Shown here piece by piece: positions 49,769-64,000 of a DNA stretch of 64,000 nucleotides. The translations under genes were made by a program, and so were the position numbers. Source of the DNA: Streptomyces reniochalinae (GTDB lineage Bacteria; Actinomycetota; Actinomycetes; Streptomycetales; Streptomycetaceae); contig NZ_QOIM01000030.1 of NCBI RefSeq assembly GCF_003323735.1, forward strand, positions 62,001 through 126,000. Direction: 5' to 3'. How positions within the stretch are numbered: position 1 is the stretch's first letter; every line of letters starts with the position of its first letter. The notes below the pieces were generated by a model. That model saw nothing but the letters and a program-made list of their open reading frames with translations. It did no database searches and had not been told where the DNA came from.

Positions 49769-51802
49769 TCATCCCCTCTCGCCCAGTTCCGCCAGCATCG
49801 TGCCCCGCAGCCGCAACGTGCTGACGAGCCGCTGGAACGACTCCGCCCAGTACGCCCCGGCCCCCGGAGACTCCTCCTCCCGCACGTCGGGAACAGCGGC
49901 GAGCGGAGCGAGCCGCTCGGCGTCGGACGGGTCCAGACAGCGCTCCGCCAACCCCATCACCCCGCTGAAGCTCCACGGGTAACTCCCCGCGTCCCGGGCG
50001 ATCTCCAACGCGTCCACGACCGACCGCCCCAGCGGCAGCGACCACGGCACCGCGCACACCCCCAAGATGCGGAACGCCTCCGACAGCCCGTGGGCCGCGA
50101 TGAAGCGCGCCGCCCACGCCCCCCGCTCCTCCTCGGGCAGCACCGACAACAATCTGGCCGGATCGCCCGGCCCCTCCGCGAACGGCTCGATGGGCTCACC
50201 GATCAGCGCACGCGCCCACGCGGCGTTCCGTTGCCTGACGGCCGCACCGCACCACGCCGCGTGCAGGTCGTCCCGCCAACCATCGGCGACCGGCAGGGCG
50301 ATGATCTGCTCAGGCGTCCGCCCCTCCAGCCGTTCGCACCACACGTCCAACGGGGACGCCTCCACCAACTGGACGAGCCACCACGCCCGCTCCCCCCGCC
50401 CGGTGGGCGGCTTCGGTATGACGCCGTCGCGCTGCATACCGGCGTCACACTCGGGCGGCGCCTCGACGACGATGCCGCCGCCACGCACCCGGTCCGGAGC
50501 CACGCAGGCTCTGGCCCGCTCCGCCATGCGCGCCGCCAGCGCGGAACCGGGCAGCGCCGCCAGCAACTCGGCCGCCGTCGCCCGCACCGTACGGCTGCGG
50601 TCCGCCAGAGCGCGCTCCAGGAACGGTTCGTCGGCCTCGCTGAGCCCCTGGCGCAGCGAATCCAGGAACATCAGCCGGTCCTCGGCGCGCTCGGTCTGCC
50701 AGGTCGAGGCCAGCAAGGCCAGCCCCGCCTCCGGCCGGTGCCGCCGCAACGACGAGAGCACCGCCACCCGCTCGGCGAACAGCCCCTCCTGCCAGACCCG
50801 TTCGCCCGCGCCCGGGTCCTCGCCCGCACCCGGTATCCGGCGCCGCGCGCCGTCCCGTAGCGCGAACCTCCAGTCCGGGTTGTGCCGGGCCAGCCACAGC
50901 GCCCGGGGGCCGGCGAAGGCCAGCGTCTCGGCCCGCAGGTCCGTACGGGCCCGCGCCGCGTCCAGCAGCGCAGGCAGCAGGTCCGCCGGGGCGCGGTAAC
51001 CCCGGCGGTTGGCCTCCGCGAGCCACTGCGGCAGCAACTCGCCCAGGTCGGGGCCGGCGCCGCGCCGCCCCGCCGCGCCCGCGTGACCCGGTCCGCTTCC
51101 CGCCCGCTCCGCGAGCAGCGTGGCCAGCCGCTGCTCGGCCGCTGTGGGCAGCGGTGTCCGCGCGTCCTCCGGTGCGGGACGCGGCCGCTGCCGGGGCACG
51201 GCGGGCCGTACGCCGGCGCGACGGCGTACGGTCTCGGCCGCTGCCGCGTCCAGCAACGCCGTCGCGCTCCCTCCCGGCGGGCGCCGCCGTTCGCCCCCCA
51301 GCAGAGCGGCAGACACCAACTCCCCCCACTCAGGCCCGCCCGCCTCCCGTTCCTCGTCTCGCCGCCCCGCCTGGTGCAGGCCGTCTGTGTCCGGCCGGCC
51401 CCGCTCCGCATGGTCAAGGCCGTCTGCGTGCCCCCGGCCTCGGCTTGGTCCCGGGGGCTCGGTGGCCCTCGTCGATCTTGCCGCTGCTTCCGGGCCGCCG
51501 CCGTCTTCCGGTTCGACGGCTCCCGCCGACCTCGCCTCCGCTTCCGGCTGGGCGGCTCCCGCCGCCGACCTCGCTGCCGCTTCCGCCGACCTCGCCGCCG
51601 CCTCGGTGCCGTCCCTGGGTTCGTTGCTGTCTCTGGGCTCAGCGCCGCCTCCCCGCTCGACGCCTTCTCGCGGCACCCGCGCTTCCCGTTGCCCACCCGT
51701 GCTTTCCAGCCCGGGCACTGGCACGGCATCGTGCTGTGCCTCGACCGTCTCCGGCGGCCCGCTCGCCCGATGCTTCCGTCCGACTTCCGTTTCAGCCGAC
51801 AC
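49769..51802 (-). CDS. DUF5691-type protein of the MoxR-VWA gene cluster
   Basis: 677 residues, helical-repeat-like, of the family annotated DUF5691 and found beside MoxR-VWA operons. The first about 150 residues are Ala/Glu/Arg-rich and repetitive (AAARSAEAAARSA). The conserved part opens WGELVSAALLGGERR and contains MFLDSLRQGLSEADEPFLER, ARTDLRAETLAFAG and WCERLEGRTPEQIIALPV, suggesting HEAT-like helices. No enzymatic motif is apparent. GTG 51802 has GGGGAG upstream. It follows the SWIM-associated gene by 171 bp on the same strand and is probably in the same operon. Confidence 0.82.
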   Translation of the reverse strand: MSAETEVGRKHRASGPPETVEAQHDAVPVPGLESTGGQREARVPREGVERGGGAEPRDSNEPRDGTEAAARSAEAAARSAAGAAQPEAEARSAGAVEPEDGGGPEAAARSTRATEPPGPSRGRGHADGLDHAERGRPDTDGLHQAGRRDEEREAGGPEWGELVSAALLGGERRRPPGGSATALLDAAAAETVRRRAGVRPAVPRQRPRPAPEDARTPLPTAAEQRLATLLAERAGSGPGHAGAAGRRGAGPDLGELLPQWLAEANRRGYRAPADLLPALLDAARARTDLRAETLAFAGPRALWLARHNPDWRFALRDGARRRIPGAGEDPGAGERVWQEGLFAERVAVLSSLRRHRPEAGLALLASTWQTERAEDRLMFLDSLRQGLSEADEPFLERALADRSRTVRATAAELLAALPGSALAARMAERARACVAPDRVRGGGIVVEAPPECDAGMQRDGVIPKPPTGRGERAWWLVQLVEASPLDVWCERLEGRTPEQIIALPVADGWRDDLHAAWCGAAVRQRNAAWARALIGEPIEPFAEGPGDPARLLSVLPEEERGAWAARFIAAHGLSEAFRILGVCAVPWSLPLGRSVVDALEIARDAGSYPWSFSGVMGLAERCLDPSDAERLAPLAAVPDVREEESPGAGAYWAESFQRLVSTLRLRGTMLAELGERG

Positions 51803-51973
51803 GCCGTTCAGCTCCCCTCACGCCGCCGTCTCCTCGTTCCCCTGTCCCAGGGCGAAAGCCTCCGAGGGCGAAGCGCACGCGTGGTTCGTCCCTTTCGTGC
51901 GTGCTGTCGACCGCTGACCCACGCCTTCCGGAGTTCTGCCTTCCGGTTTCCCCGGCTGTCTCGCCTTCCGTCG

Positions 51974-53140
51974 TCAGAGGGTGACGGGTCTGCTTTCGAA
52001 CCAGGCCGTGTGCGGGGTGAAGCCGTGGTGACCGCACTCGCCGAAGACCGTGAGGGGGCCGTCGGCGGACATGGCCAGCAGCTTCCACAGGGCCCTTGAG
52101 CCGGTTTCCGGGGCGACAGGGAGGGCGACATCGGCTCCGTCCGAGGCCAGTTGCCAGCCGGTGGCCGTCCGGGGCCGGGGCTGGGCCGGCCCCGCGGCAG
52201 ACGCGCCGCCCTCGGACGGGGGTATCGGAACCACATCCCGCAGTACGTACGGCCAGCCCTCCAGCCACGGGTCGCCGTGGAGGGCGCGCGCGTACGTCTC
52301 CAGGGCTTCCGGGATGCTGCCGCCCGTCGGCCGGAAACCGGGCAGCGGCGCCCCGTGCCGCTCCCCGAGCGCCGCCCGCAGCGGGCTGCCGCCGGGGTAG
52401 TAGGCGAGTTCGGCGTCCAGCACCGCACCCACCGGAAGCTCCGTCTCGGGCGCACGCCCACCGGCGGCGAACGAGAGCAGCATCGCCGACCGCCCCGTCG
52501 CGCGGCCGTACAGCCAGATGCGCCGGGCCGTGAGACGCCCCTCCTCCGTGTCGCGCTGGGCGAGCACCAACCACTCGTCCCGCAACAACGCGTCACCGTC
52601 CGCGAGAAGTTCCGACGTCCCGACCGTCAGACCCACCCGGGTGCGCACCGTTTCGGCCAGCGGCGTCGGCAGCGCGTCCCTCCCCTCCCAGGCACGGGCG
52701 AGCAGATGCAGCAGCGCACACTCGGCCAGCAGCCGCTCCGGCCACCCCTCACCCGAACCGGCCACGGAACCCAGCCCCCGTACCCGCGCGGCCAGGCCCG
52801 GCGCCTGGGAGTCGACCATGCGGGCCGCGATCTCCTCCCATGGCGCGTACCCTGCCTGCTCGGCGCCCGCGAGACCGCCGCGCAGCAGATCGGCCAGCCG
52901 CTGCTCCAACTCCTCGGTGCCCGCGCTGATCCGGGCCGCGCGCTGTGCGGCACGACGGCGCGCCGCCTCGGTGCGGCCCCCGCCCCGCGTCCGGCTATGT
53001 GTCCCTGCTCCGGAGCTCCCCTCTCCGGACGTGCTCGTCTGCGCTCCGGCGCCCTCTCCTTCGGCGCGGAGTGTCGCGTCGTCGGCCGGTACCGGCGCGC
53101 CTGCTCGCTCCGCCGCCCGGCGGACCGTGTGTCCACCCAT
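51974..53140 (-). CDS. SWIM-associated protein of the MoxR-VWA cluster, SWIM finger missing
   Basis: 388 residues matching the body of the SWIM-zinc-finger proteins that accompany MoxR/DUF5682/VWA genes in Streptomyces (ELEQRLADLLRGGLAGAEQAGY, ARMVDSQAPGLAARVRGLG, GWPERLLAECALLHLLARAW, GECGHHGFTPHTAW). Relatives begin with a CxC...CxH SWIM finger; here no such Cys/His set is present and the N-terminus is a disordered Gly/Ser/Ala tract. ATG 53140 is supported by a promoter whose -10 box lies 7 nt upstream, i.e. a leaderless start. The family assignment is from memory and should be checked by profile search. Confidence 0.72.
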   Translation of the reverse strand: MGGHTVRRAAERAGAPVPADDATLRAEGEGAGAQTSTSGEGSSGAGTHSRTRGGGRTEAARRRAAQRAARISAGTEELEQRLADLLRGGLAGAEQAGYAPWEEIAARMVDSQAPGLAARVRGLGSVAGSGEGWPERLLAECALLHLLARAWEGRDALPTPLAETVRTRVGLTVGTSELLADGDALLRDEWLVLAQRDTEEGRLTARRIWLYGRATGRSAMLLSFAAGGRAPETELPVGAVLDAELAYYPGGSPLRAALGERHGAPLPGFRPTGGSIPEALETYARALHGDPWLEGWPYVLRDVVPIPPSEGGASAAGPAQPRPRTATGWQLASDGADVALPVAPETGSRALWKLLAMSADGPLTVFGECGHHGFTPHTAWFESRPVTL

Positions 53141-53147
53141 GCCGAAA

Positions 53148-53170
53148 ACGGTAGGCGCCGCCACTGACAA
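53148..53170 (-). promoter_or_regulatory. PafBC/RecA-NDp-type promoter of the SWIM-associated gene
   Basis: Minus-strand TTGTCAGTG (53170-53162), 8 bp, TACCGT (53153-53148). This matches the mycobacterial damage-promoter motif TTGTCRGTG-N8-TAnnnT exactly. The ATG follows 7 nt later, consistent with a leaderless transcript. The motif is known to be driven by PafBC after DNA damage in mycobacteria. Confidence 0.72.
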
Positions 53171-53219
53171 CGAGCCCCCAACTCCTCGTCGCCGCAGGTC
53201 AGAAGCGATATCGGTGGCG

Positions 53220-53242
53220 TTGTCAGTGGCGGGGTGCACAGT
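53220..53242 (+). promoter_or_regulatory. Facing PafBC-like motif for the MoxR operon
   Basis: Plus-strand TTGTCAGTG (53220-53228), 8 bp, CACAGT (53237-53242). The -35-like part and spacing are perfect; the -10 is CAnnnT, one base from TAnnnT. With the minus-strand copy it forms a 14-bp inverted repeat (CCGCCACTGACAAC 53158-53171 / GTTGTCAGTGGCGG 53219-53232) around a 47-bp centre. The leader to MoxR would be about 130 nt. Confidence 0.55.
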
Positions 53243-53315
53243 GGTTCACGGATCGGCCGAGGCGCTGCGGCGCGGGGGTTCCCTCCTTGGCCGCTCCCAT
53301 GCCTTTTTCCGTCAT

Positions 53316-53360
53316 CGAGCGTCCGAACCGAGCGTCCGAACCGAGCTTTCGAACCGAGCC
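53316..53360 (+). repeat. 13-bp tandem repeat in the MoxR leader
   Basis: CGAGCGTCCGAAC (53316-53328), an identical copy (53329-53341), then CGAGCTTTCGAAC (53342-53354) and a partial copy. It lies between the PafBC-like promoter and the MoxR ribosome site. Phased 13-bp units could be binding sites for an activator or spacing-sensitive leader elements. Confidence 0.8.
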
Positions 53361-53378
53361 CTGCGTTGAGGGGGAGTT

Positions 53379-54482
53379 GTGACCCAGAGCGATGTCGCGG
53401 AGCAGCCGGCGCTGCGGCCCCACGCCGAGGACGCGTTCGCGGACGAGTTGGCTGCCTTGGCCGCCGTCGACGACAGGCCGCGGCCTGCTCGTTGGCGGCT
53501 GTCGCCGTGGGCCGTGGCGACGTATCTCCTCGGCGGCGAGCTGCCGCAGGGCCGCGTGATCTCACCCAAGTACGTGGGTCCGCGCCGCGTCGTGGAGGTC
53601 GCCGTCAGCACGTTGGCCACGGACCGGGCGCTGCTGCTGCTCGGCGTGCCGGGTACGGCCAAGACGTGGCTGTCGGAGCACCTGGCGGCGGCCGTCAGCG
53701 GGGACTCGACGCTGCTGGTGCAGGGCACGGCGGGCACGGCGGAGGAGTCGATCCGCTACGGCTGGAACTACGCCCAACTGCTCGCGCAGGGGCCCAGCCG
53801 GGAGGCGCTGGTGCCCAGTCCGGTGATGCGCGCCATGGCGGAGGGCATGACGGCACGGGTCGAGGAGCTGACCCGTATGCCCGCCGATGTGCAGGACTCG
53901 CTGATCACCGTGCTGTCCGAGAAGACGCTGCCGGTCCCCGAGTTGGGTGAGGAGGTGCAGGCGGTCCGCGGCTTCAACCTGATCGCCACGGCCAACGACC
54001 GTGACAGAGGGGTCAACGAGCTCTCCAGCGCCCTGCGCCGCCGCTTCAACACGGTGGTGCTGCCGCTGCCGGACACCGCGGAGGCGGAGGTGGAGATCGT
54101 GGCGCGCCGCGTCGGGCAGCTGGGCAGCTCGCTGGACCTGCCGCCGGCACCGGAGGGGTTCGACGAGATCCGCCGGGTGGTCACCGTCTTCCGCGAGCTG
54201 CGGGAAGGCGTCACCGAGGACGGGCGCACCAAGCTCAAGTCGCCTTCGGGCACGCTGTCCACGGCTGAGGCCATCTCCGTGGTGACGGGTGGTCTGGCGT
54301 TGGCCGCGCACTTCGGTGACGGCGTGCTGCGCGCGGGCGACGTGGCCGCGGGGATCCTGGGCGCCGTCGTCCGGGATCCGGCCTCCGACCAGGTGGTGTG
54401 GCAGGAGTATCTCGAGGCCGTCGTGCGTGAGCGGGAGGGCTGGAAGGACTTCTACCGTGCCTGTCGAGAGGTGTCGGTATGA
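53379..54482 (+). CDS. MoxR-family AAA+ ATPase
   Basis: 367 residues. Walker A GVPGTAKTW (89-97), a MoxR-type helix insert near PADVQDSLITVLSEKTLPVP, sensor 1 FNLIATANDRD, and the arginine-finger helix SALRRRFNTVVLPL. MoxR ATPases act with VWA-domain proteins as chaperones that insert cofactors or remodel partner proteins. GTG 53379 follows GGGGGAG. The stop overlaps the start of the DUF5682 gene (ATGA), so MoxR, DUF5682 and VWA are a coupled three-gene operon. Confidence 0.94.
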   Translation: MTQSDVAEQPALRPHAEDAFADELAALAAVDDRPRPARWRLSPWAVATYLLGGELPQGRVISPKYVGPRRVVEVAVSTLATDRALLLLGVPGTAKTWLSEHLAAAVSGDSTLLVQGTAGTAEESIRYGWNYAQLLAQGPSREALVPSPVMRAMAEGMTARVEELTRMPADVQDSLITVLSEKTLPVPELGEEVQAVRGFNLIATANDRDRGVNELSSALRRRFNTVVLPLPDTAEAEVEIVARRVGQLGSSLDLPPAPEGFDEIRRVVTVFRELREGVTEDGRTKLKSPSGTLSTAEAISVVTGGLALAAHFGDGVLRAGDVAAGILGAVVRDPASDQVVWQEYLEAVVREREGWKDFYRACREVSV

Positions 54483-57079
54483 CAGCTTCCGCACCCGAAG
54501 GTGCCGTCGCGCCCGTGACCTGCGGTCCTCCTCAGAACGCGGCACCGCGAGGGGGGCCTCCGGCCGGGCCGCTGCTGCTCGGCGTGCGGCATCACGGGCC
54601 GGGTTCGGCGCGTGCGGTGCGGGCCGCGCTGGAGGCGTACGAGCCGCGCGTCGTCCTGATCGAGGGCCCGCCGGAGGGTGACGCGGTGGTGGGCCTGGCG
54701 GGGGAGGAGGCGATGGTTCCCCCCGTGGCGTTGCTGGCCCACGCGGTCAACGAGCCGGGCAGGGCCGCTTTCTGGCCACTCGCGGAGTTCTCGCCGGAGT
54801 GGGTGGCCATCCGCTGGGCGGTGAGGCGCGGCGTCCCTGTCCGGTTCATCGACCTGCCGGCAGCGCACACCCTCGCGATGAGCGAAGGCCGCACCGTGAG
54901 CGAAGGCGAGGAGCAGCTACACGGGGAGGGCGGAGAGAAGCCGCACAAAGAGGGGGACGGGACGGTCCCCGGCGGCCCCCACGGGGGTGGAGCCGCCGGG
55001 GACACGCCACCCGACGGGCTACAGCGGCCCGCCGGCCAAAAGATTCGGCTCGATCCGCTGGCGGCGCTCGCGGAAGTCGCCGGGTACGACGATCCGGAGC
55101 GCTGGTGGGAAGACGCCGTCGAACACCGGAGGGGCGGCCGCCACGACCCCTTCGCGCCGTTCACCGCTCTCGGCGAGGCCATGTCCGAGCTGCGTGCTGT
55201 GCACGGGGACGGCGGTCACGGGCACGACCTGCTCCGCGAAGCCCACATGCGGCTGCGGTTGCGGGAGGCCGCCAAGGAGTTCGGCAGCGCGGCCACGGCC
55301 GTCGTCTGCGGTGCCTGGCACGTACCCGCGCTCGCCGAGCCGGAGCAGCCGGCGGTGACGGCCGACCGCCGGATGCTCAAGGGGCTGCCGAGGGTGAAGG
55401 CCGAGGTCACGTGGGTGCCGTGGACGTACCGGCGGCTGGCGCGCCGGTCCGGGTACGGAGCGGGGATCGCCGCGCCCGGTTGGTACGGCCATCTGTTCGC
55501 AGTGCCGGACCGGCCCGTGGAGCGGTGGATGACGAAGGTCGCGGGGCTGCTGCGGGAGCGGGACCATCCGGTCTCGTCCGCTCATGTGATCGAGGCGGTG
55601 CGGCTCGCCGAAACCTTGGCCGCCTTGCGCGCACGCCCGCTGGCGGGGCTGACGGAGTGCACCGACGCGATACGTGCGGTGCTGTGCGAGGGCTCCGACG
55701 TGCCGTTGGCCCTGATACGGGAGCGGCTGGTGGTCGGTGAGGCGCTGGGTGAGGTGCCCGAGGGCGCTCCTGCCGTGCCGCTCCAGCGTGACGTGGAGCG
55801 CTGCGGGCGTGCCGTGCGGCTCAAACCGGCGGCCACCGAGCGGGAGATGGACCTCGACCTGCGCAAGGACACCGACGCGGCCCGCAGCCGCCTGCTGCAC
55901 CGGTTGCGGCTGCTCGGTGTCGACTGGGGCGTGCCCGCGCACTCGCGCGCGGGCAGCACCGGCACGTTCCGCGAGACGTGGCGTCTGCGCTGGGAGCCGG
56001 AGTTGTCCGTGCGCGTGGCCGAGGCCGCGCTCTGGGGCACGACGGTGTACGAGGCGGCCACCGTCAAAGCCTGCTCCCGTGCGGTGGAGGCGCCGGGCGG
56101 CACGCTCGCGGACGTCACCGCGCTGGCCGAACACTGCCTGTTGGCGCACCTGCCGGACGCGCTGCCCGTCGTGATGCGGGTTCTGTCCGACCGGGCGGCG
56201 TTGGAGGCCGATGTCGGGCACCTCGCGCAGGCGCTCCCCGCGCTGGTGCGCAGCCTGCGTTACGGCGACGTCCGGGGCACCGATGCGGGGGCGCTCGCCG
56301 AGGTGGCGGGCGGTATGGCCGCGCGGGTGTGCGTCGGGCTCCCGCCCGCCTGCGCGGGGCTCGGTGACGAGGGCGCCCGCGAGATGCGCGGACCTCTGGA
56401 CGCCGCGCACCAGGCCGTGCGCCTGCTGACCCGCGGCGAGCCGTGCAAGGAGGGCGAGGAGGGCCTGGCGGGGGAGGGCCAGGCGGAGGAGGGCCGGTCA
56501 GGAGCCGGCTTGCTGAGCAGGTGGCGCGGGATGTTGCGGACGCTCGCCGGGCGTGCCCTGGTACCCGGCCTGCTGCGCGGCCGCTGCGTGCGGCTGCTGC
56601 TGGACGAGGGCAGTCTGGCGGACGAGGAGGCGGAGCGGCTGATGCGTCTCGCCCTCTCGCCGGGGACGCCACCGGGTGAGGCCGCCGCGTGGGTCGAGGG
56701 CTTTCTCTCGGGCGGCGGGATGCTGCTCGTCCATGACGAACGGCTGCTCGCGCTGGTCGACCGGTGGCTGACCGGCGTGCCGGCGGAGGCGTTCACGCAC
56801 GTGTTGCCGCTGCTGCGGAGGACCTTCGCGCAGTTCGAGTCGGGGGTGCGGCGCACGCTGGGTGAGCTGGCGCGGCGGGGGCCGGCGGGCGAGGGCGCCG
56901 GGGCGGCGGCGGGGGCCGGGGAGGGGCTGCCCGGTTTCGGTCCTGGGCTCGAGGCGGCGCGCGCCGAGCCCGCGCTCGAGACGGTACGGCTGCTGCTGGG
57001 CGGGGCCCGGGCCGGGGCGGCGGCGTCGCGGGAAGACGGGAGCGGACCGGTGGACGAGCGGCAGGAGGTACGCGCATGA
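54479..57079 (+). CDS. DUF5682 protein of the MoxR-VWA cluster
   Basis: 866 residues annotated as DUF5682 by synteny and opening motif (LLLGVRHHGPGSARAVRAALE, VVLIEGPPEGD). An acidic/Gly-rich loop (about 135-190) interrupts the N-terminal part. Segments include GAWHVPALAE, VTWVPWTYRRLARRSGYG, WYGHLFAVPDRPVERWM and several helical repeats. The N-terminal RHHGPGSAR and VLIEGPP patches resemble an enzyme active-site pocket, but no reaction is known. It overlaps both neighbours by ATGA and is therefore translationally coupled. Confidence 0.88.
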   Translation: MTASAPEGAVAPVTCGPPQNAAPRGGPPAGPLLLGVRHHGPGSARAVRAALEAYEPRVVLIEGPPEGDAVVGLAGEEAMVPPVALLAHAVNEPGRAAFWPLAEFSPEWVAIRWAVRRGVPVRFIDLPAAHTLAMSEGRTVSEGEEQLHGEGGEKPHKEGDGTVPGGPHGGGAAGDTPPDGLQRPAGQKIRLDPLAALAEVAGYDDPERWWEDAVEHRRGGRHDPFAPFTALGEAMSELRAVHGDGGHGHDLLREAHMRLRLREAAKEFGSAATAVVCGAWHVPALAEPEQPAVTADRRMLKGLPRVKAEVTWVPWTYRRLARRSGYGAGIAAPGWYGHLFAVPDRPVERWMTKVAGLLRERDHPVSSAHVIEAVRLAETLAALRARPLAGLTECTDAIRAVLCEGSDVPLALIRERLVVGEALGEVPEGAPAVPLQRDVERCGRAVRLKPAATEREMDLDLRKDTDAARSRLLHRLRLLGVDWGVPAHSRAGSTGTFRETWRLRWEPELSVRVAEAALWGTTVYEAATVKACSRAVEAPGGTLADVTALAEHCLLAHLPDALPVVMRVLSDRAALEADVGHLAQALPALVRSLRYGDVRGTDAGALAEVAGGMAARVCVGLPPACAGLGDEGAREMRGPLDAAHQAVRLLTRGEPCKEGEEGLAGEGQAEEGRSGAGLLSRWRGMLRTLAGRALVPGLLRGRCVRLLLDEGSLADEEAERLMRLALSPGTPPGEAAAWVEGFLSGGGMLLVHDERLLALVDRWLTGVPAEAFTHVLPLLRRTFAQFESGVRRTLGELARRGPAGEGAGAAAGAGEGLPGFGPGLEAARAEPALETVRLLLGGARAGAAASREDGSGPVDERQEVRA

Positions 57080-58278
57080 CCGCGGGCCAGGACGGTGCGG
57101 CGGGGGCCGCGGAGGCGGAGCGGTTGCGGCGCTGGCGCATGGTGCTCGGCGGTGGCGAAGCGGACGGTACCGGCTGTGCGCTGGGCACAGCGGACAGCGG
57201 CATGGACCGTGCGCTGGAGACCGTCTACGGCGCGGACGGCTCCGGTGGCGGCGACCGGAGCGGCGGTGGCAGCCGCGGCGGCGGGCTCGGTGCCTCGGCC
57301 CCGCACGTCTCCCGCTGGCTGGGTGACATCCGCACGTATTTCCCCAGCCCGGTGGTGCAGGTGATGCAGCGGGACGCCATCGACCGGCTCGGGCTCTCGT
57401 CGCTGCTGCTGGAGCCCGAGATGCTGGAGGCCGTCGAGCCGGACGTGCACCTGGTGGGCACGCTCCTGTCGCTCAGGGCCGCGCTCCCGGAGACCAGCAG
57501 GGAGACGGCCAGGGCCGTGGTGCGCAAGGTCGTGGCGGAGCTGGAGCGGCGGCTGGCGGCCCGGACCCGGTCGGCGCTGGCCGGCGCGCTGGACCGCTCC
57601 GCGAAGGTCGACCGCCCCCGCCACCGGGACATCGACTGGAACCGGACCATCCGGGCGAACCTGAAGAACTACCTGCCCGAGTACGGCACGGTGGTGCCCG
57701 AGCGGCTGGTCGGCTACGGGCGGGCCGCGCGGTCGGTCAGGAAGGACGTCGTCCTCTGTGTCGACCAGTCGGGGTCGATGGCGTCGTCCGTGGTCCACGC
57801 CGCGGTGTTCGGCGCGGTACTGGCGTCGATGCGGACGTTGCACACGCGGCTCGTCGTCTTCGACACCGGCGTCGTGGATCTGACCGACGAGCTGGACGAC
57901 CCCGTCGACGTGCTGTTCGGCACCCAGCTGGGCGGGGGCACCGACATCAACCGCGCGCTCGCCTACTGCCAGTCCCGGATCAGCCGGCCGGCGGAGACGG
58001 TCGTCGTGCTGATCAGCGATCTGTACGAGGGAGGGATACGGAAGGAGATGCTGGGGCGGGTCGCCGCGATGAAGGACGCCGGTGTTCAGTTCGTCACGCT
58101 GCTCGCGCTCTCCGACGAGGGCGCGCCCTCCTACGACAGGGAGCACGCCGCCGCTCTCGCCGCCCTCGGCGCTCCCGCTTTCGCCTGCACTCCCGACCAC
58201 TTTCCCGAGGTGATGGCCGCCGCGATCGAGAAGCGTCCGATACCGGTGCCCAAGGACCGGGGGCCCTCAGGGCTGTGA
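57076..58278 (+). CDS. VWA-domain protein of the MoxR-VWA cluster
   Basis: 400 residues. A helical N-terminal half (GDIRTYFPSPVVQVMQRDAI) precedes a von Willebrand A domain with MIDAS residues VLCVDQSGSM (DxSxS), FDTGVVDLTDEL, GGGTDINRALAY (Thr ligand) and VVVLISDLYEGG (Asp ligand), so it should bind a divalent metal. VWA proteins of this type team with MoxR ATPases. ATG 57076 overlaps the DUF5682 stop. This gene ends the plus-strand arm of the cluster. Confidence 0.93.
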   Translation: MTAGQDGAAGAAEAERLRRWRMVLGGGEADGTGCALGTADSGMDRALETVYGADGSGGGDRSGGGSRGGGLGASAPHVSRWLGDIRTYFPSPVVQVMQRDAIDRLGLSSLLLEPEMLEAVEPDVHLVGTLLSLRAALPETSRETARAVVRKVVAELERRLAARTRSALAGALDRSAKVDRPRHRDIDWNRTIRANLKNYLPEYGTVVPERLVGYGRAARSVRKDVVLCVDQSGSMASSVVHAAVFGAVLASMRTLHTRLVVFDTGVVDLTDELDDPVDVLFGTQLGGGTDINRALAYCQSRISRPAETVVVLISDLYEGGIRKEMLGRVAAMKDAGVQFVTLLALSDEGAPSYDREHAAALAALGAPAFACTPDHFPEVMAAAIEKRPIPVPKDRGPSGL

Positions 58279-60642: not shown

Positions 60643-60677
60643 GACGGGCCCGCACCCCGCGAGGGTGCGGGCCCGTC
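60643..60677. terminator. Bidirectional terminator after sucD
   Basis: GACGGGCCCGCACCC (60643-60657) / GGGTGCGGGCCCGTC (60663-60677), perfect 15-bp stem, 5-nt loop. It overlaps the stop codon of the convergent minus-strand gene (60676-60678), so it serves both strands. Confidence 0.9.
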
Positions 60678-62406
60678 AGCTGTTCCGGCCCGGGCCCTGC
60701 TCGCTCCGCTGGAAGTCGTGCAGGTCCACGCGCCCGTTGGTGGAGCGGAGCTGGGGCAGATAGGCACGGTCCGAGGGCGACGAACGCCTGGCCTCGGCGT
60801 GCCGCCGCTCCCGGCCCTCTTCACTCGTCCGAGTGGTTCTCACCACGGACGCGCCGGGGAACGCCGCCGGAGCGAAGGTCCGGGGCACCACCTCGGCGGG
60901 CTTCCTCGGCGGCTGTTCGCTCTCCGCCGTCACGAGAGTGAGTACCGTCGCCGCGGTCACGGTCGCCGTCAGCCCCAGCGAAGCCCGCGTCCACAGCCGC
61001 GTCGTACGGCAGCTGCGGCGGCGCACGAGACGGGGCGGCACGGGCCGCACCGGCTGGGCCACGGCGAGTTCGCGCAGAGTGTCGGCCAGCACGGCGCCGC
61101 GCCGTCTTCGCGGGAGCTCCCGCAGCGGCGGCCAGCTCTCCTCGAGCGCCACCCGCCCGTGGGTGACCCGGCCCGCGGCCGCCTCCGTACTGCACTCCAC
61201 CTCGGCGGCGGTCTGCGGCAGTGTGAGCCCCAGCCCGTAGTGCAGCAGCAGCGCGGCACGGTAGCTGCGCGGCAGCCCCAGGAACGCCTCCAGCACGGCT
61301 CGGTCCTCCGGCGGGCCCGAGTACGCCTGCGGCACGCGGCGCAGCGGGTGGAACTGGTGCCACGGGGACAGCGCGTACTCGTACACCGTCGCGCGCACCG
61401 TGCGCGTCGGGTCGCCGCCCGCCAGCACCCTGGGCCAGTGCTGCCACGCCTGGTGGAACGCCCACCGCACCGCGCGCTCCGCCACGCGCCGGTGTCCTGA
61501 CAGCAGGAACGCCTGCCGGGTGAGGGCCCGAGCCTGCCGCACGTAGAGCTCGTCGAACGCCTCGACCGGGTCCGACGGCAGCTCTCGCGGCTGCGCGGCG
61601 GTCCGTACGAAGTCGTCCACCGGCCCCGCCACCGCCGCGACCACCTCGACGCGGGGCTCCGCTTCGCTCCGCCGCGGTGCGGGTGCCGACACCCGTGGCG
61701 TCGGCGCCACCTCGCCCGTGAGGGGTTCGCTCCGCGGGGTGGGCGCCGGAGCCGTACGGGTCCCCGCGCCACCCCCATCCTCTACTTCGGCAGGCCCTTT
61801 CGCCCCAGGTGGCCGTTCCATCTCAGGAGGCCCTCCCACCTCTGGAGGATCTTCGACCTCCCAAGGACCCTCCTCCTCGGGAGGCCCTTCTCTCTCGGGA
61901 GCAGCCACCTCCACCGGAGCCGCCACCGCTACGGACGGCTCATCCGGCGCGGGACTCGGCGTGGCGCCTGCTTCGGGGCCCGGCGCGGTGGCGTCCGGTG
62001 CGGCGTCCGGCGCGGGAGCTGACGCGCCGGACGACGAGGCGCTCGGCGAGGCGCTCGGCGAGGCGCTCCACGAGGGGGTCGGCGTGGCGGGTGGTGCGGC
62101 GGCCTGCGGGGTGGACTTCTGCCGCTGGGCGGTCGAACGTCTGGCCTGCCCCCTGCTCTTGCCCTTGCTTTTTCCCATGCCCCTGCCGCCTTGCCGCCCG
62201 CTCTTGGGGGCCTCCCTCTTGGCGTCCCCCGTGGCCCCGCCCTCCGCCGTCGCCGTCGTCGGAGACAGCCCCGCCGCGGTCGTGGCGGGAGCGGACGGGG
62301 ACGAGGGGGCGTCAGGAGCCCCGGGGGCGGGACGCGTTGCCGCGTCGGCGGCCGCGTCGGCGGCCGCGCCCGCAGGCGCGGCAGCAGAGCTGGAAGAAAG
62401 ACGCAT
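60676..62406 (-). CDS. Membrane-tethered sigma-factor-like protein with a long disordered N-terminus
   Basis: 576 residues. About 260 N-terminal residues are Ala/Pro/Ser/Glu-rich with repeats ([10 protein letters not shown]-like). Then a degenerate sigma-70 region 2 ([37 protein letters not shown]) and a region 4-like part ([43 protein letters not shown]) followed by one TM helix (about 468-492, [18 protein letters not shown]) and an outer basic tail. An ECF-like sigma core fused to a TM is unusual; it may act as a membrane-bound regulator rather than a free sigma. ATG 62406 lies after AAGGG. Confidence 0.78.
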
Positions 62407-62482
62407 AGCCCTTAGCTTGTGCGACACAGCGACAAAATGCCTGCTACTAGGGCAAAACGGGTGTTCTTGGCAGCATGGCGTC

Positions 62483-64000
62483 GTGAGCCAATTGACGCAC
62501 CGCGGTCCCTCGTTGTCCTCGGGCCGTGGCCACCCCCGCTCCCTGACCCTGACCAGCGGTTGGCTACTGGGCGGCGCCGTGGCCGCGGGGCTCGGTCTCG
62601 GCGTGTGCGCCGTGGTCGTCCTGCTGCTGTGGACCGTCTCGCCGTACCCGGACAGCGACGCGGACGGTGCTCTGCACCTGGCCGCGGACCTGTGGTTGCT
62701 GGCGCACGGTGTGCAGCTCGTGCGGCACGAAACGCTCTCCGGTATCCCGGCACCCGTCGGGGTGACACCGTTGATGCTGACGGTCGTACCGGTGTGGCTG
62801 CTGTGGCGCGCCACACGCGAAGGGCTCGAATCGCGGCCGGCCGCGGGCGCCGGGTACGGGGCGGCGGCCGTCGGGGGCTGGGTCTCGGGCGGCTACCTTC
62901 TCGTCACCGCCGCGGCCGTCGCCTACGCCTCGGGCGGGCCCATCGAGGCGGAGCCCGCCGGCACGAGCTGGCGGCTGCCGCTGTTCGTCGTCGTCGTGAC
63001 CGGCCTGTGCGCGGCGTTCTCCTCGCAGCGCCGCTCGGTGGCGAACGCGTGGACTCAGCTGTCCTCCCGGCTGCCCGAGGCACCCCGGGAACGGGTGTCG
63101 GGGGTCACACGGCAGATGACGCGAGAGCGGGCCGTCGTCGCCGTGCAGGCGGGCGGTGCGGCAACGGTCGTGCTGTGCGGCGGGGGTGCTTTCCTGCTCT
63201 CGGCGGCCCTTGTGTGGGACGTGCGGACCGTCTGCCGCACCTTCCCCCAGCTGACCGAAACCCTCTCGGGACAGTTCGCGGTTCTGCTGCTGGGGGTGGC
63301 GCTGCTGCCCAACGCGGTGCTGTGGGCGACGTCGTACGGCCTCGGCCCGGGCTTCACGCTGGGCGGCGACAGCGTCGTCTCCCCTGTCCTGAGCACCGGC
63401 TCGCCGCACCTGCCGCCGTTCCCGCTGCTCTCCGTCGTCCCCGAAGAGAGCTCCGGCGGGGTGGTCGCCTGTTGCCTGGTGGCGGTGGTCCCGGCGCTGG
63501 GCGGCCTGATGTGCGGATGGTGGGTGGGGCGTTCCCAGGCGGCCGTGGGGCGGGCCGAGGTCGCCGTCCGGCAGCGGGGAGGGCATCCGGCGGGGTGGCG
63601 GGCCGTACTGGTGACGGTGCCGCTCGCCGCGGTCCTGTGCGGTGCGCTCCTCGCGCTGCTCGCCGCTGTGGCCGGCGGCCCGCTCGGGAGCGCCGCCCTC
63701 GCGCACGTGGGACCGTCGTGGTGGCAGACGGGCGGGGCCGCCTGCGGGTGGATGATCGCCGTCGGGCTGCCGACCGCGCTGGGCGTGCGCTGGTGGGTAC
63801 GGTCGAGCGCCCGCAGGGCCGCGGCAGCGGCGGCCCGCGCCGCGGAGGCCGCGGCCAAGGCGGCGGCCGGGCTCGGCCCGGACGCCGCCTGGCACACGGA
63901 CGCGGCCCGCCGTGTGCGCTGGGCCGCGATGAGGGATGCCTCCGGCGGCCTGATGGCCCCCTTCGCCCCGGCCGACCCGACGGAGCGCGGTCTCGTTCAC
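62483..64000 (+). CDS. DUF6350/PerM-like multi-TM membrane protein (runs off the window)
   Basis: Open from GTG 62483 ([14 protein letters not shown]) to the window end, 506 codons without a stop. It contains many TM helices ([117 protein letters not shown]) and a C-terminal Ala-rich helix ([18 protein letters not shown]). This fits the actinobacterial DUF6350 family, called PerM when linked to cell division. In Streptomyces it is usually followed by purN/purH, which would lie beyond this window. No clear SD. Confidence 0.85.

Follow-up and report, generated by a model that had tools for sequence, protein, structure and literature searches.

A MoxR-VWA gene cluster of Streptomyces with a conserved pair of DNA-damage-type promoters

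What does a functionally blank chaperone system do, and when is it made? This question is raised by a five-gene cluster within a 64,000-nt stretch of the 7.7-Mb genome of Streptomyces reniochalinae, referred to here as the window, to whose positions all coordinates refer. Genes for a MoxR-type AAA+ ATPase, a DUF5682 protein and a VWA_CoxE protein lie on the plus strand, genes for a SWIM-type protein and a DUF5691 protein on the minus strand, and the two groups diverge from a shared intergenic gap of 238 bp (53141-53378). Nearly all of the Streptomyces genomes compared retain the cluster, and its damage-type promoters suggest that it helps the cell to withstand DNA damage. The spacing between its two promoter boxes appears to evolve only in steps of about one helix turn, which points to an unusual paired switch. 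This quantised spacing, together with a phased third element between the boxes, is the most surprising part of the locus.

The divergent promoters and the regulon around them

The regulatory features of the intergenic gap are as follows:

53148-53170 (read from 53170 to 53148), minus strand: promoter P1, TTGTCAGTG-N8-TACCGT, a perfect TTGTCRGTG-N8-TANNNT motif; the SWIM ATG at 53140 lies 7 nt past the -10 element
53220-53242, plus strand: promoter P2, TTGTCAGTG-N6-TGCACAGT, equivalent to TTGTCAGTG-N8-CACAGT, in which C opens the -10 element and directly follows TG
53171-53219, no strand: box-to-box gap of 49 bp, one of the quantised lengths of about 26, 37, 49, 61, 72 and 84 bp
53194-53202, plus strand: GCAGGTCAG element, preceding the plus box by 17 nt

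An earlier note on this DNA had described two facing boxes in a shared 238-bp gap, the minus copy perfect and the plus copy differing only in its first -10 base. Both boxes are present within a gap of that length and have these sequences, although they stand back to back, as divergent promoters, and are not strictly facing. The window holds five TTGTCRGTG boxes against 0.46 expected. P1 is predicted to be leaderless, and P2 carries a leader, with the MoxR GTG 136 nt downstream in the window.

The conservation of the two promoters was assessed in orthologous regions, of which 137 of 153 sequences were usable (16 lacked MoxR or SWIM) and 130 were retained after removal of identical ones, a number that may still include nearly identical regions from one species. 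These comprise the window, 73 regions from L022-L101, four from L103-L152 and L244, and 52 from L246-L305. The 73 derive from a first set of 80 Streptomyces loci found by one scan of genome contigs, seven of which lacked MoxR or the SWIM core; the 52 form a hold-out, being the usable and new members of 60 further regions fetched after the pattern had been noticed. P1 is perfect in 127 of the 130 regions, window included, and the P2 box with CANNNT is likewise found in 127, with TA at the plus site in none. Both are intact in 124, and the six misses (three P1 and three P2 sites) are each one base off in the box. The first set has a perfect P1 in 73/73 and the plus box in 72/73, never of the TA type; in the hold-out, P1 is perfect in 49 and the CA-type plus box is present in 50. 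Outside the promoter regions, only two perfect motifs occur in 1.25 Mb of the 80 first loci. The start-codon geometry is similarly constrained, with the SWIM ATG located 7 nt (121/127) or 6 nt (6/127) after the P1 -10 element, and the P1-linked ATG in frame with the SWIM core in 128/130 regions when one-mismatch sites are included. The alignment of orthologous promoters, which the earlier note had proposed as a check on its damage-promoter reading, thus finds the motif retained.

The exchange at the plus site is itself conserved: in 125/127 regions the sequence runs TGCA up to and including the second base of the -10 element. A search of four genomes (G514, G528, G561 and G585) for TTGTCAGTG-N8-YANNNT gave 116 sites, 60 of the TA and 56 of the CA type, and none for the control. 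TG directly or one base before the -10 element was found at 38/56 CA sites versus 2/60 TA sites (Fisher p 1.7e-14), counts in which sites are partly orthologous across the four genomes and so counted up to four times. Sites of the TGCA type occur in 57 of 61 sampled genomes of the genus (control 0), and the CA class also heads pentapeptide-repeat genes, often with the same start geometry of 6-7 nt. The C at the first -10 base is read here as being compensated by the upstream TG, in a promoter subclass to which P2 belongs.

The company kept by the motif includes many genes of DNA repair. The full TA motif occurs at 13 sites in the S. reniochalinae genome (reversed-pattern control 0), and at ten of these an ATG or GTG lies 6-8 nt past the -10 element, at the head of a reading frame of 73 codons or more. 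Annotation covered these 13 sites and 12 CA sites of the same genome, along with the first 30 of 44 sites in a second genome (G023), with Pfam matching on a selection. In S. reniochalinae the TA sites head genes for RecA, SbcD, a DnaX-type protein and an AlkZ-like glycosylase, as well as a DUF3670 helicase, a HAD hydrolase, a Shedu protein and a RecD2-HHH protein, the last with its start 78 nt away. The G023 sites head UDG, RuvC, UvrA, UvrB, MGMT, UvrD, RecD2 and GmrSD genes, with 40-80 nt of leader in some cases, and in both genomes a CA-type site heads a dinB-type gene. The S. reniochalinae genome also encodes pafB and pafC near the Pup ligase gene, with two small open reading frames (ORFs) between; its WYL/WCX proteins match the solved PafB and PafC chains, and one has an HTH_PafC domain. 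The motif before repair genes and the presence of pafB and pafC are together the company expected of a PafBC regulon.

PafBC is activated by single-stranded DNA (ssDNA) and acts by sigma adaptation (PMC11804915). The earlier note had called the motif one known from mycobacteria, which is correct but too narrow, as the RecA-NDp promoter type was described from the recA gene of Streptomyces rimosus (a reference title in PMC5087735), and the Streptomyces gene SCO6735, with the same promoter type, is reported to be UV-inducible (PMC5087735). Given the conservation in orthologues and the recA, sbcD, uvrA, uvrB, ruvC and uvrD genes under the same motif, the damage-promoter reading of the cluster is strongly supported by sequence. 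Control by the SOS repressor LexA was considered and rejected: a GAACN4GTTC scan of 15 loci other than the window gave matches at L236 5025, L240 12469, L243 5856 and L142 5185 and 7920, none of them near P1 or P2.

A gene of defence type also appears to be controlled by the motif. The S. reniochalinae Shedu protein (SduA domain, PF14082; locus L019, G000:C22:496285-496307) starts 7 nt past a perfect TTGTCAGTG-N8-TAGTGT, a damage-type promoter, and in G023 proteins of the SMI1/KNR4 (SUKH-1), SUKH-4 and GmrSD_N families start near damage-type motifs (L161, L163, L178 and L174).

Spacing of the boxes and the element between them

The distance between the two boxes falls into discrete classes. 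Gap lengths (n = 124) are 25-27 bp (7 regions), 36-38 (44), 47-50 (31), 60-61 (17), 72 (1), 83-84 (2) and 120-738 (22). Of the gaps no longer than 100 bp, 101/102 deviate by at most 2 bp from 26 + n x 11.65, as do 32/33 in the hold-out. Shared ancestry was addressed with phylogenetically independent pairs drawn on a MoxR and SWIM tree, for gaps of up to 130 bp (20 of the 124 being longer). The 29 pairs that differ do so by 1 bp (7), 11-13 (11), 21-24 (8), 35, 57 and 60 bp, and never by 2-10 bp. Of the 22 larger differences, 21 are no more than 2 bp away from a multiple of 11.65, compared to 35% expected for uniform differences. Since the period was chosen from the same data, the null test let each null choose its own best period; a matching fit was reached by 0/2000 sets of uniform differences and by 0/2000 sets resampled from MoxR leader lengths. 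Random halves of the taxa left at least 86% in phase, and in these loci the length of the MoxR leader shows no comparable period.

The gap also contains a third element, GCAGGTCAG. With up to one mismatch it is present in 113/124 gaps, compared to a base-shuffled mean of 3.85 and a maximum of 9 in 200 shuffles. It reads toward one of the boxes at a distance of 5-6 nt (90/113) or 16-18 nt (13/113), the remaining ten copies being placed elsewhere in long gaps. If transcripts start 30 bp after a box begins, the element centres near -41 or -52, with the window copy at about -52. These are classical positions for activators and the RNA polymerase alpha-CTD. The element contains GTCAG, which is the core of the promoter box; a second PafBC and another factor are both candidate binders. 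Nine of 12 genomes contain the arrangement CAGGTCAG-N5/6-TTGTCAGTG, at 18 sites in all and with none for the control. It stands at this cluster in four and elsewhere heads genes for LigA, a large ATP-dependent helicase, a pentapeptide-repeat protein and others. At 8 of the 18 sites in these 12 genomes (L327-L329, L331, L334, L335, L339 and L342) it is followed by a conserved unnamed protein whose N-terminal sequence looks the same by eye and whose G023 copy has no NCBIfam match.

The encoded proteins and their distribution

The five genes are as follows:

49769-51802, minus strand: DUF5691 protein, 677 aa (PF18944, E 2.2e-168); the AlphaFold model has a low-confidence N-terminus (1-155) and an alpha-solenoid (HEAT/ARM-like) body
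51974-53140, minus strand: C-terminal core of a SWIM protein, 388 aa, ATG at 53140-53138, assigned by translation and orthologue comparison
53379-54482, plus strand: MoxR-type AAA+ ATPase, 367 aa, YehL counterpart (PF07728, E 1.5e-37; 41% identity to YehL by tblastn)
54479-57079, plus strand: DUF5682 protein, 866 aa, YehM counterpart (PF18934, E 6e-291); a predicted N-terminal alpha/beta domain is followed by an alpha-solenoid
57076-58278, plus strand: VWA_CoxE protein, 400 aa, YehP counterpart by alignment, with a DxSxS metal-site motif (PF05762, E 1.4e-60)

Pfam matches agree with the earlier assignment of the MoxR (AAA_5), DUF5682 and VWA genes on the plus strand and of DUF5691 on the minus, and the ORF list gives the ATGA-type overlaps as 4 bp at each junction of the three plus-strand genes. 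The pairing of PF07728 with PF05762, with DQSGS as the metal-site motif and DUF5682 alone lying between, is that of a MoxR-VWA system. The ATPase, with 41% identity to YehL, is a candidate member of the YehL subfamily of MoxR proteins; by sequence search, NorQ is its solved relative after the midasins. Pairs of this kind remodel targets and insert metals (PMC13036017), and the chaperone or remodelling machine that the earlier note predicted fits these domains and the homology to YehL and YehP of Escherichia coli.

The fifth assignment held only in part. The orthologues of the SWIM-associated gene encode SWIM proteins, but the window copy has no zinc finger and no Pfam match at E 0.001. The SWIM zinc ligands (CxC..CxH) are present in 124/130 regions and missing from the window, L069, L266, L270, L288 and L298, all of which retain the promoter and the SWIM core, so that finger loss is recurrent; in L266 the loss is uncertain, as the leaderless ATG is out of frame and a frame or start problem is possible. 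On sequence, the window gene is a finger-less version of the orthologues' SWIM protein, and the finger appears dispensable in some lineages. Literature searches found no paper combining the SWIM zinc finger, Streptomyces and DNA damage, nor one naming DUF5682 or DUF5691.

DUF5682 is the most suggestive candidate for a client of the pair. Residues H38, H39, E62, E107, D125, G278 and H281 are present in 25/25 aligned members (the window protein and 24 others), and G35 in 24/25, such that the N-terminal domain carries GxxH(38), E62 and GxxH(281) in order. GxxH, E and GxxH in this order form the signature of the TIKI/TraB/EreA proteins. A His-Glu pair has a role in the TIKI/TraB family (PMC6254334). 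In the AlphaFold model of DUF5682 (mean pLDDT 68), whose C-terminal two thirds form an alpha-solenoid, the N-terminal strands span residues 32-36, 58-61, 83-89, 92-101, 121-123 and 273-278, with H38 after the first strand, E62 after the second and H281 after the last, a layout that recalls TIKI/TraB proteins. Membership of the TIKI/TraB/EreA group is nevertheless not adopted here, as the motif fits and the profile comparison does not. No TraB relatives were found in 118 genomes of the class, leaving YbaP of E. coli as the sole TraB comparison sequence, and the DUF5682 profile matched no solved structure at E up to 5. The DUF5691 model consists of helical repeats (mean pLDDT 71); its fold matches, at Z 7-9, are generic helical-repeat proteins and do not rise above the usual background of that class.

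Within the order, 141 of 147 genomes have DUF5691, comprising 129/132 Streptomyces and 12/15 outside the genus; it thus behaves as a core gene. DUF5682 is patchy outside the order, being present in 24/396 genomes and 11/236 genera of the phylum. The nine operons outside the order that allowed placement of both SWIM and MoxR have a co-directional arrangement, SWIM-(DUF5691)-MoxR-DUF5682-VWA, as do eleven loci of a second family of the same order (f77), where all five genes run one way. Its wider occurrence suggests that this arrangement is the older. In nine of the eleven f77 loci (L233-L238 and L241-L243) an ATG at the SWIM start follows a TA-type site by 6-7 nt, the site being perfect in two and mismatched at a single base in seven; eight of these nine (8/11 overall) have a full TGCA-type site between SWIM and DUF5691. 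The promoter pair thus appears to have outlived the rearrangement that separates the two gene arrangements. The GCAGGTCAG element at 5-6 nt was not seen in the f77 loci.

A second DUF5682 match is found in 8 of 12 sampled Streptomyces genomes. The loci viewed (L127-L132 and L145-L149) hold a cluster of MoxR, DUF5682 (a long ORF) and VWA that lacks the divergent pair of promoters. A damage-type motif, mismatched at one base in L146, stands some 6 kb upstream in L145-L147. Near the five genes of the window, a minus-strand ORF of 712 aa (60676-62814) has a C-terminal match to SigE-family/sigma-70 region 4.

Proposed mechanism, rival explanations and known systems

The explanation that is favoured here, if with restraint, is of a MoxR-VWA machine within the damage regulon that activates DUF5682 and is governed by a phase-coupled promoter pair. 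The cluster would be a core member of the Streptomyces PafBC-type (RecA-NDp) DNA-damage regulon. Upon damage, ssDNA-loaded PafBC would guide housekeeping RNA polymerase to the back-to-back pair of promoters, of which the leaderless TA-type P1 would drive SWIM-DUF5691 and the leadered TGCA-type P2 would drive MoxR-DUF5682-VWA. Both promoter complexes and the binder of GCAGGTCAG would keep a fixed helical phase, possibly through stereospecific contact, and with such a phase the two promoters would probably fire jointly. MoxR, as a hexamer, and the VWA protein would form an ATP-driven remodelling or metal-insertion pair like NorQ-NorD. Their most likely client would be the co-translated DUF5682, a putative metallo- or metal-assisted hydrolase, while SWIM and DUF5691 may serve as scaffolds or adaptors bringing the machine to nucleic acid or a repair target. 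A more specific version is regarded as doubtful: that two PafBC-RNA polymerase complexes and a factor, possibly a second PafBC, on the GTCAG site at about -41/-52 are phase-locked, that one ssDNA signal fires both halves, and that the machine loads or activates DUF5682 as a new damage-induced metallo-hydrolase, whose relatives extend from Actinobacteria to YehM of E. coli.

Several observations weigh against this account. With respect to regulation, an initial search suggested that the PafBC motif of Mycobacterium smegmatis is not conserved in Streptomyces venezuelae (PMC9380542). No full motif was found in the actinobacterial operons outside the order, where L134 has an 11-of-12 match before SWIM, and f77 loci L239 and L240 have neither promoter type. 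DUF5691 is absent from three of the 132 Streptomyces genomes. The GCAGGTCAG element is not general, occurring within 80 bp of 9/55 damage-type sites, four of which are this cluster's. The best period of the spacing, 11.6-11.8 bp, exceeds 10.5 bp (fit 0.269 at 10.5 versus 0.871 at 11.8), and the 22/124 gaps of more than 100 bp fit no demonstrated series. Self-similarity in the longer gaps peaks at lag 12 (0.372, against 0.248-0.357 at the other lags from 5 to 24), from which short duplications may contribute to gap lengths. As for the proteins, the window and up to five other regions have lost the SWIM finger, which is presumed to read nucleic acid. In hhalign comparisons DUF5682 scored 0.8% probability against 14 Erythro_esteras sequences and 1.2% against the single YbaP sequence, and its fold search was filled by the helical half, with no TIKI-type fold among the matches listed.

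The lag-12 peak favours a reading in which the quantised gap is a functionless by-product of slippage in units of 11-12 bp. This is rather unlikely, as no clear tandem units were visible by eye in the gaps viewed, the adjoining leader of the same loci varies by many lengths, the independent pairs show 1-bp changes but none of 2-10 bp, and GCAGGTCAG keeps an offset of 5-6 or 16-18 nt in 103/113 cases. Duplication may instead supply the material on which selection filters gap length. The promoters themselves could be used by another factor, either a different WYL activator or an ECF sigma factor that recognises a -35 of the TTGTC type, in response to a signal other than damage. The genome has eight WYL matches, only two of which are PafB and PafC, and the C-12 class heads SMI1/KNR4, pentapeptide-repeat and FAD-dependent oxidoreductase genes, none a classical repair gene. 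The recA, uvrA, uvrB and other repair genes behind the TA class, and the reported UV induction of SCO6735 (PMC5087735), nonetheless make this quite improbable.

The remaining alternatives concern the machine's purpose. Its control by damage may be accepted and its client sought outside the cluster, in a repair complex, the replisome or a respiratory enzyme, with DUF5682 as a third chaperone subunit (an adaptor or lid). This is a tentative possibility that deserves attention, since MoxR-VWA pairs have a range of clients, alpha-solenoids, which are typical scaffolds, make up most of the DUF5691 model and the C-terminal two thirds of that of DUF5682, and the hydrolase homology of DUF5682 is not significant. 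Against it, the retention of H38, E62, E107, D125 and H281 in all 25 members, from Actinobacteria and E. coli, resembles an active or metal site and not a surface. The earlier note had also raised a genome-defence device. A rival along these lines is a MoxR-vWA ternary system that serves in conflict or against phages and responds to the DNA damage they cause. Such ternary systems are predicted conflict systems that are frequent in multicellular prokaryotes (PMC7159879), and the Shedu gene shows the same perfect promoter in front of a defence-type gene in this genome. However, seven proteins compared to PADLOC matched no family at E 0.001, and DUF5691 has the distribution of a core gene, two results that speak against the earlier suggestion and by which a mobile defence island is also disfavoured. 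Moreover, bpMoxR remained under the Pfam cut-off (21.8 of 27 bits; the VMAP and iSTAND models of PMC7159879 were not run), a variable effector gene is absent among the five, neither SWIM nor YehL appears in the text of PMC7159879, and DUF5682 and DUF5691 are equally absent from the literature found. A conflict role thus seems very improbable.

The damage-regulon account can also be placed among systems already described. It shares with the PafBC/RecA-NDp regulon of mycobacteria, and with Streptomyces recA and SCO6735, the motif, its spacing, the predicted leaderless start of P1 and the presence of pafB and pafC. It differs in the back-to-back pair, the quantised spacing, the one promoter of the C-12 type and the chaperone-type genes. 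Existence of a PafBC-type damage regulon in Streptomyces, left open by one study (PMC9380542), is supported by these findings. If true, the spacing rule would be, to our knowledge and from a limited literature search, the first evidence of helical-phase coupling between divergent PafBC-type promoters. DriD of Caulobacter is likewise an ssDNA-activated WYL activator of a damage response with a bidirectional promoter; it belongs to another organism, its mechanism is called distinct from that of PafBC by its authors, and a quantised box pair goes unmentioned in the accessible part of the report (PMC12340889).

At the level of the machine, NorQ-NorD, CoxD-CoxE and RavA-ViaA share an AAA_5 MoxR protein with a VWA partner and the VWA_CoxE domain, whereas the present cluster adds DUF5682, DUF5691 and SWIM partners and damage-type promoters. 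The ternary conflict systems of the MoxR-vWA type (Kaur et al. 2020; PMC7159879) have in common the MoxR and vWA core, and are set apart by the bpMoxR score, the effector gene and the core-gene distribution discussed above. The closest relative is yehLMPQ of E. coli (b2119-b2122), which has MoxR, DUF5682 (YehM, PF18934, E 2.4e-98) and VWA_CoxE in the same order, along with the SWIM zinc-finger protein YehQ. YehL and YehP are 41% and 36% identical to the MoxR and VWA proteins of the window (tblastn). The four E. coli genes are co-directional, with no DUF5691 match among them and no TTGTCRGTG box in the 15 kb examined, and literature searches found no paper on their function. As E. coli carries the MoxR, DUF5682, VWA and SWIM genes, the system is not new as a set; on sequence grounds, the Streptomyces locus is its actinobacterial counterpart. 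Its regulatory address gives a testable physiological role, in DNA damage, to a chaperone system that E. coli also possesses.

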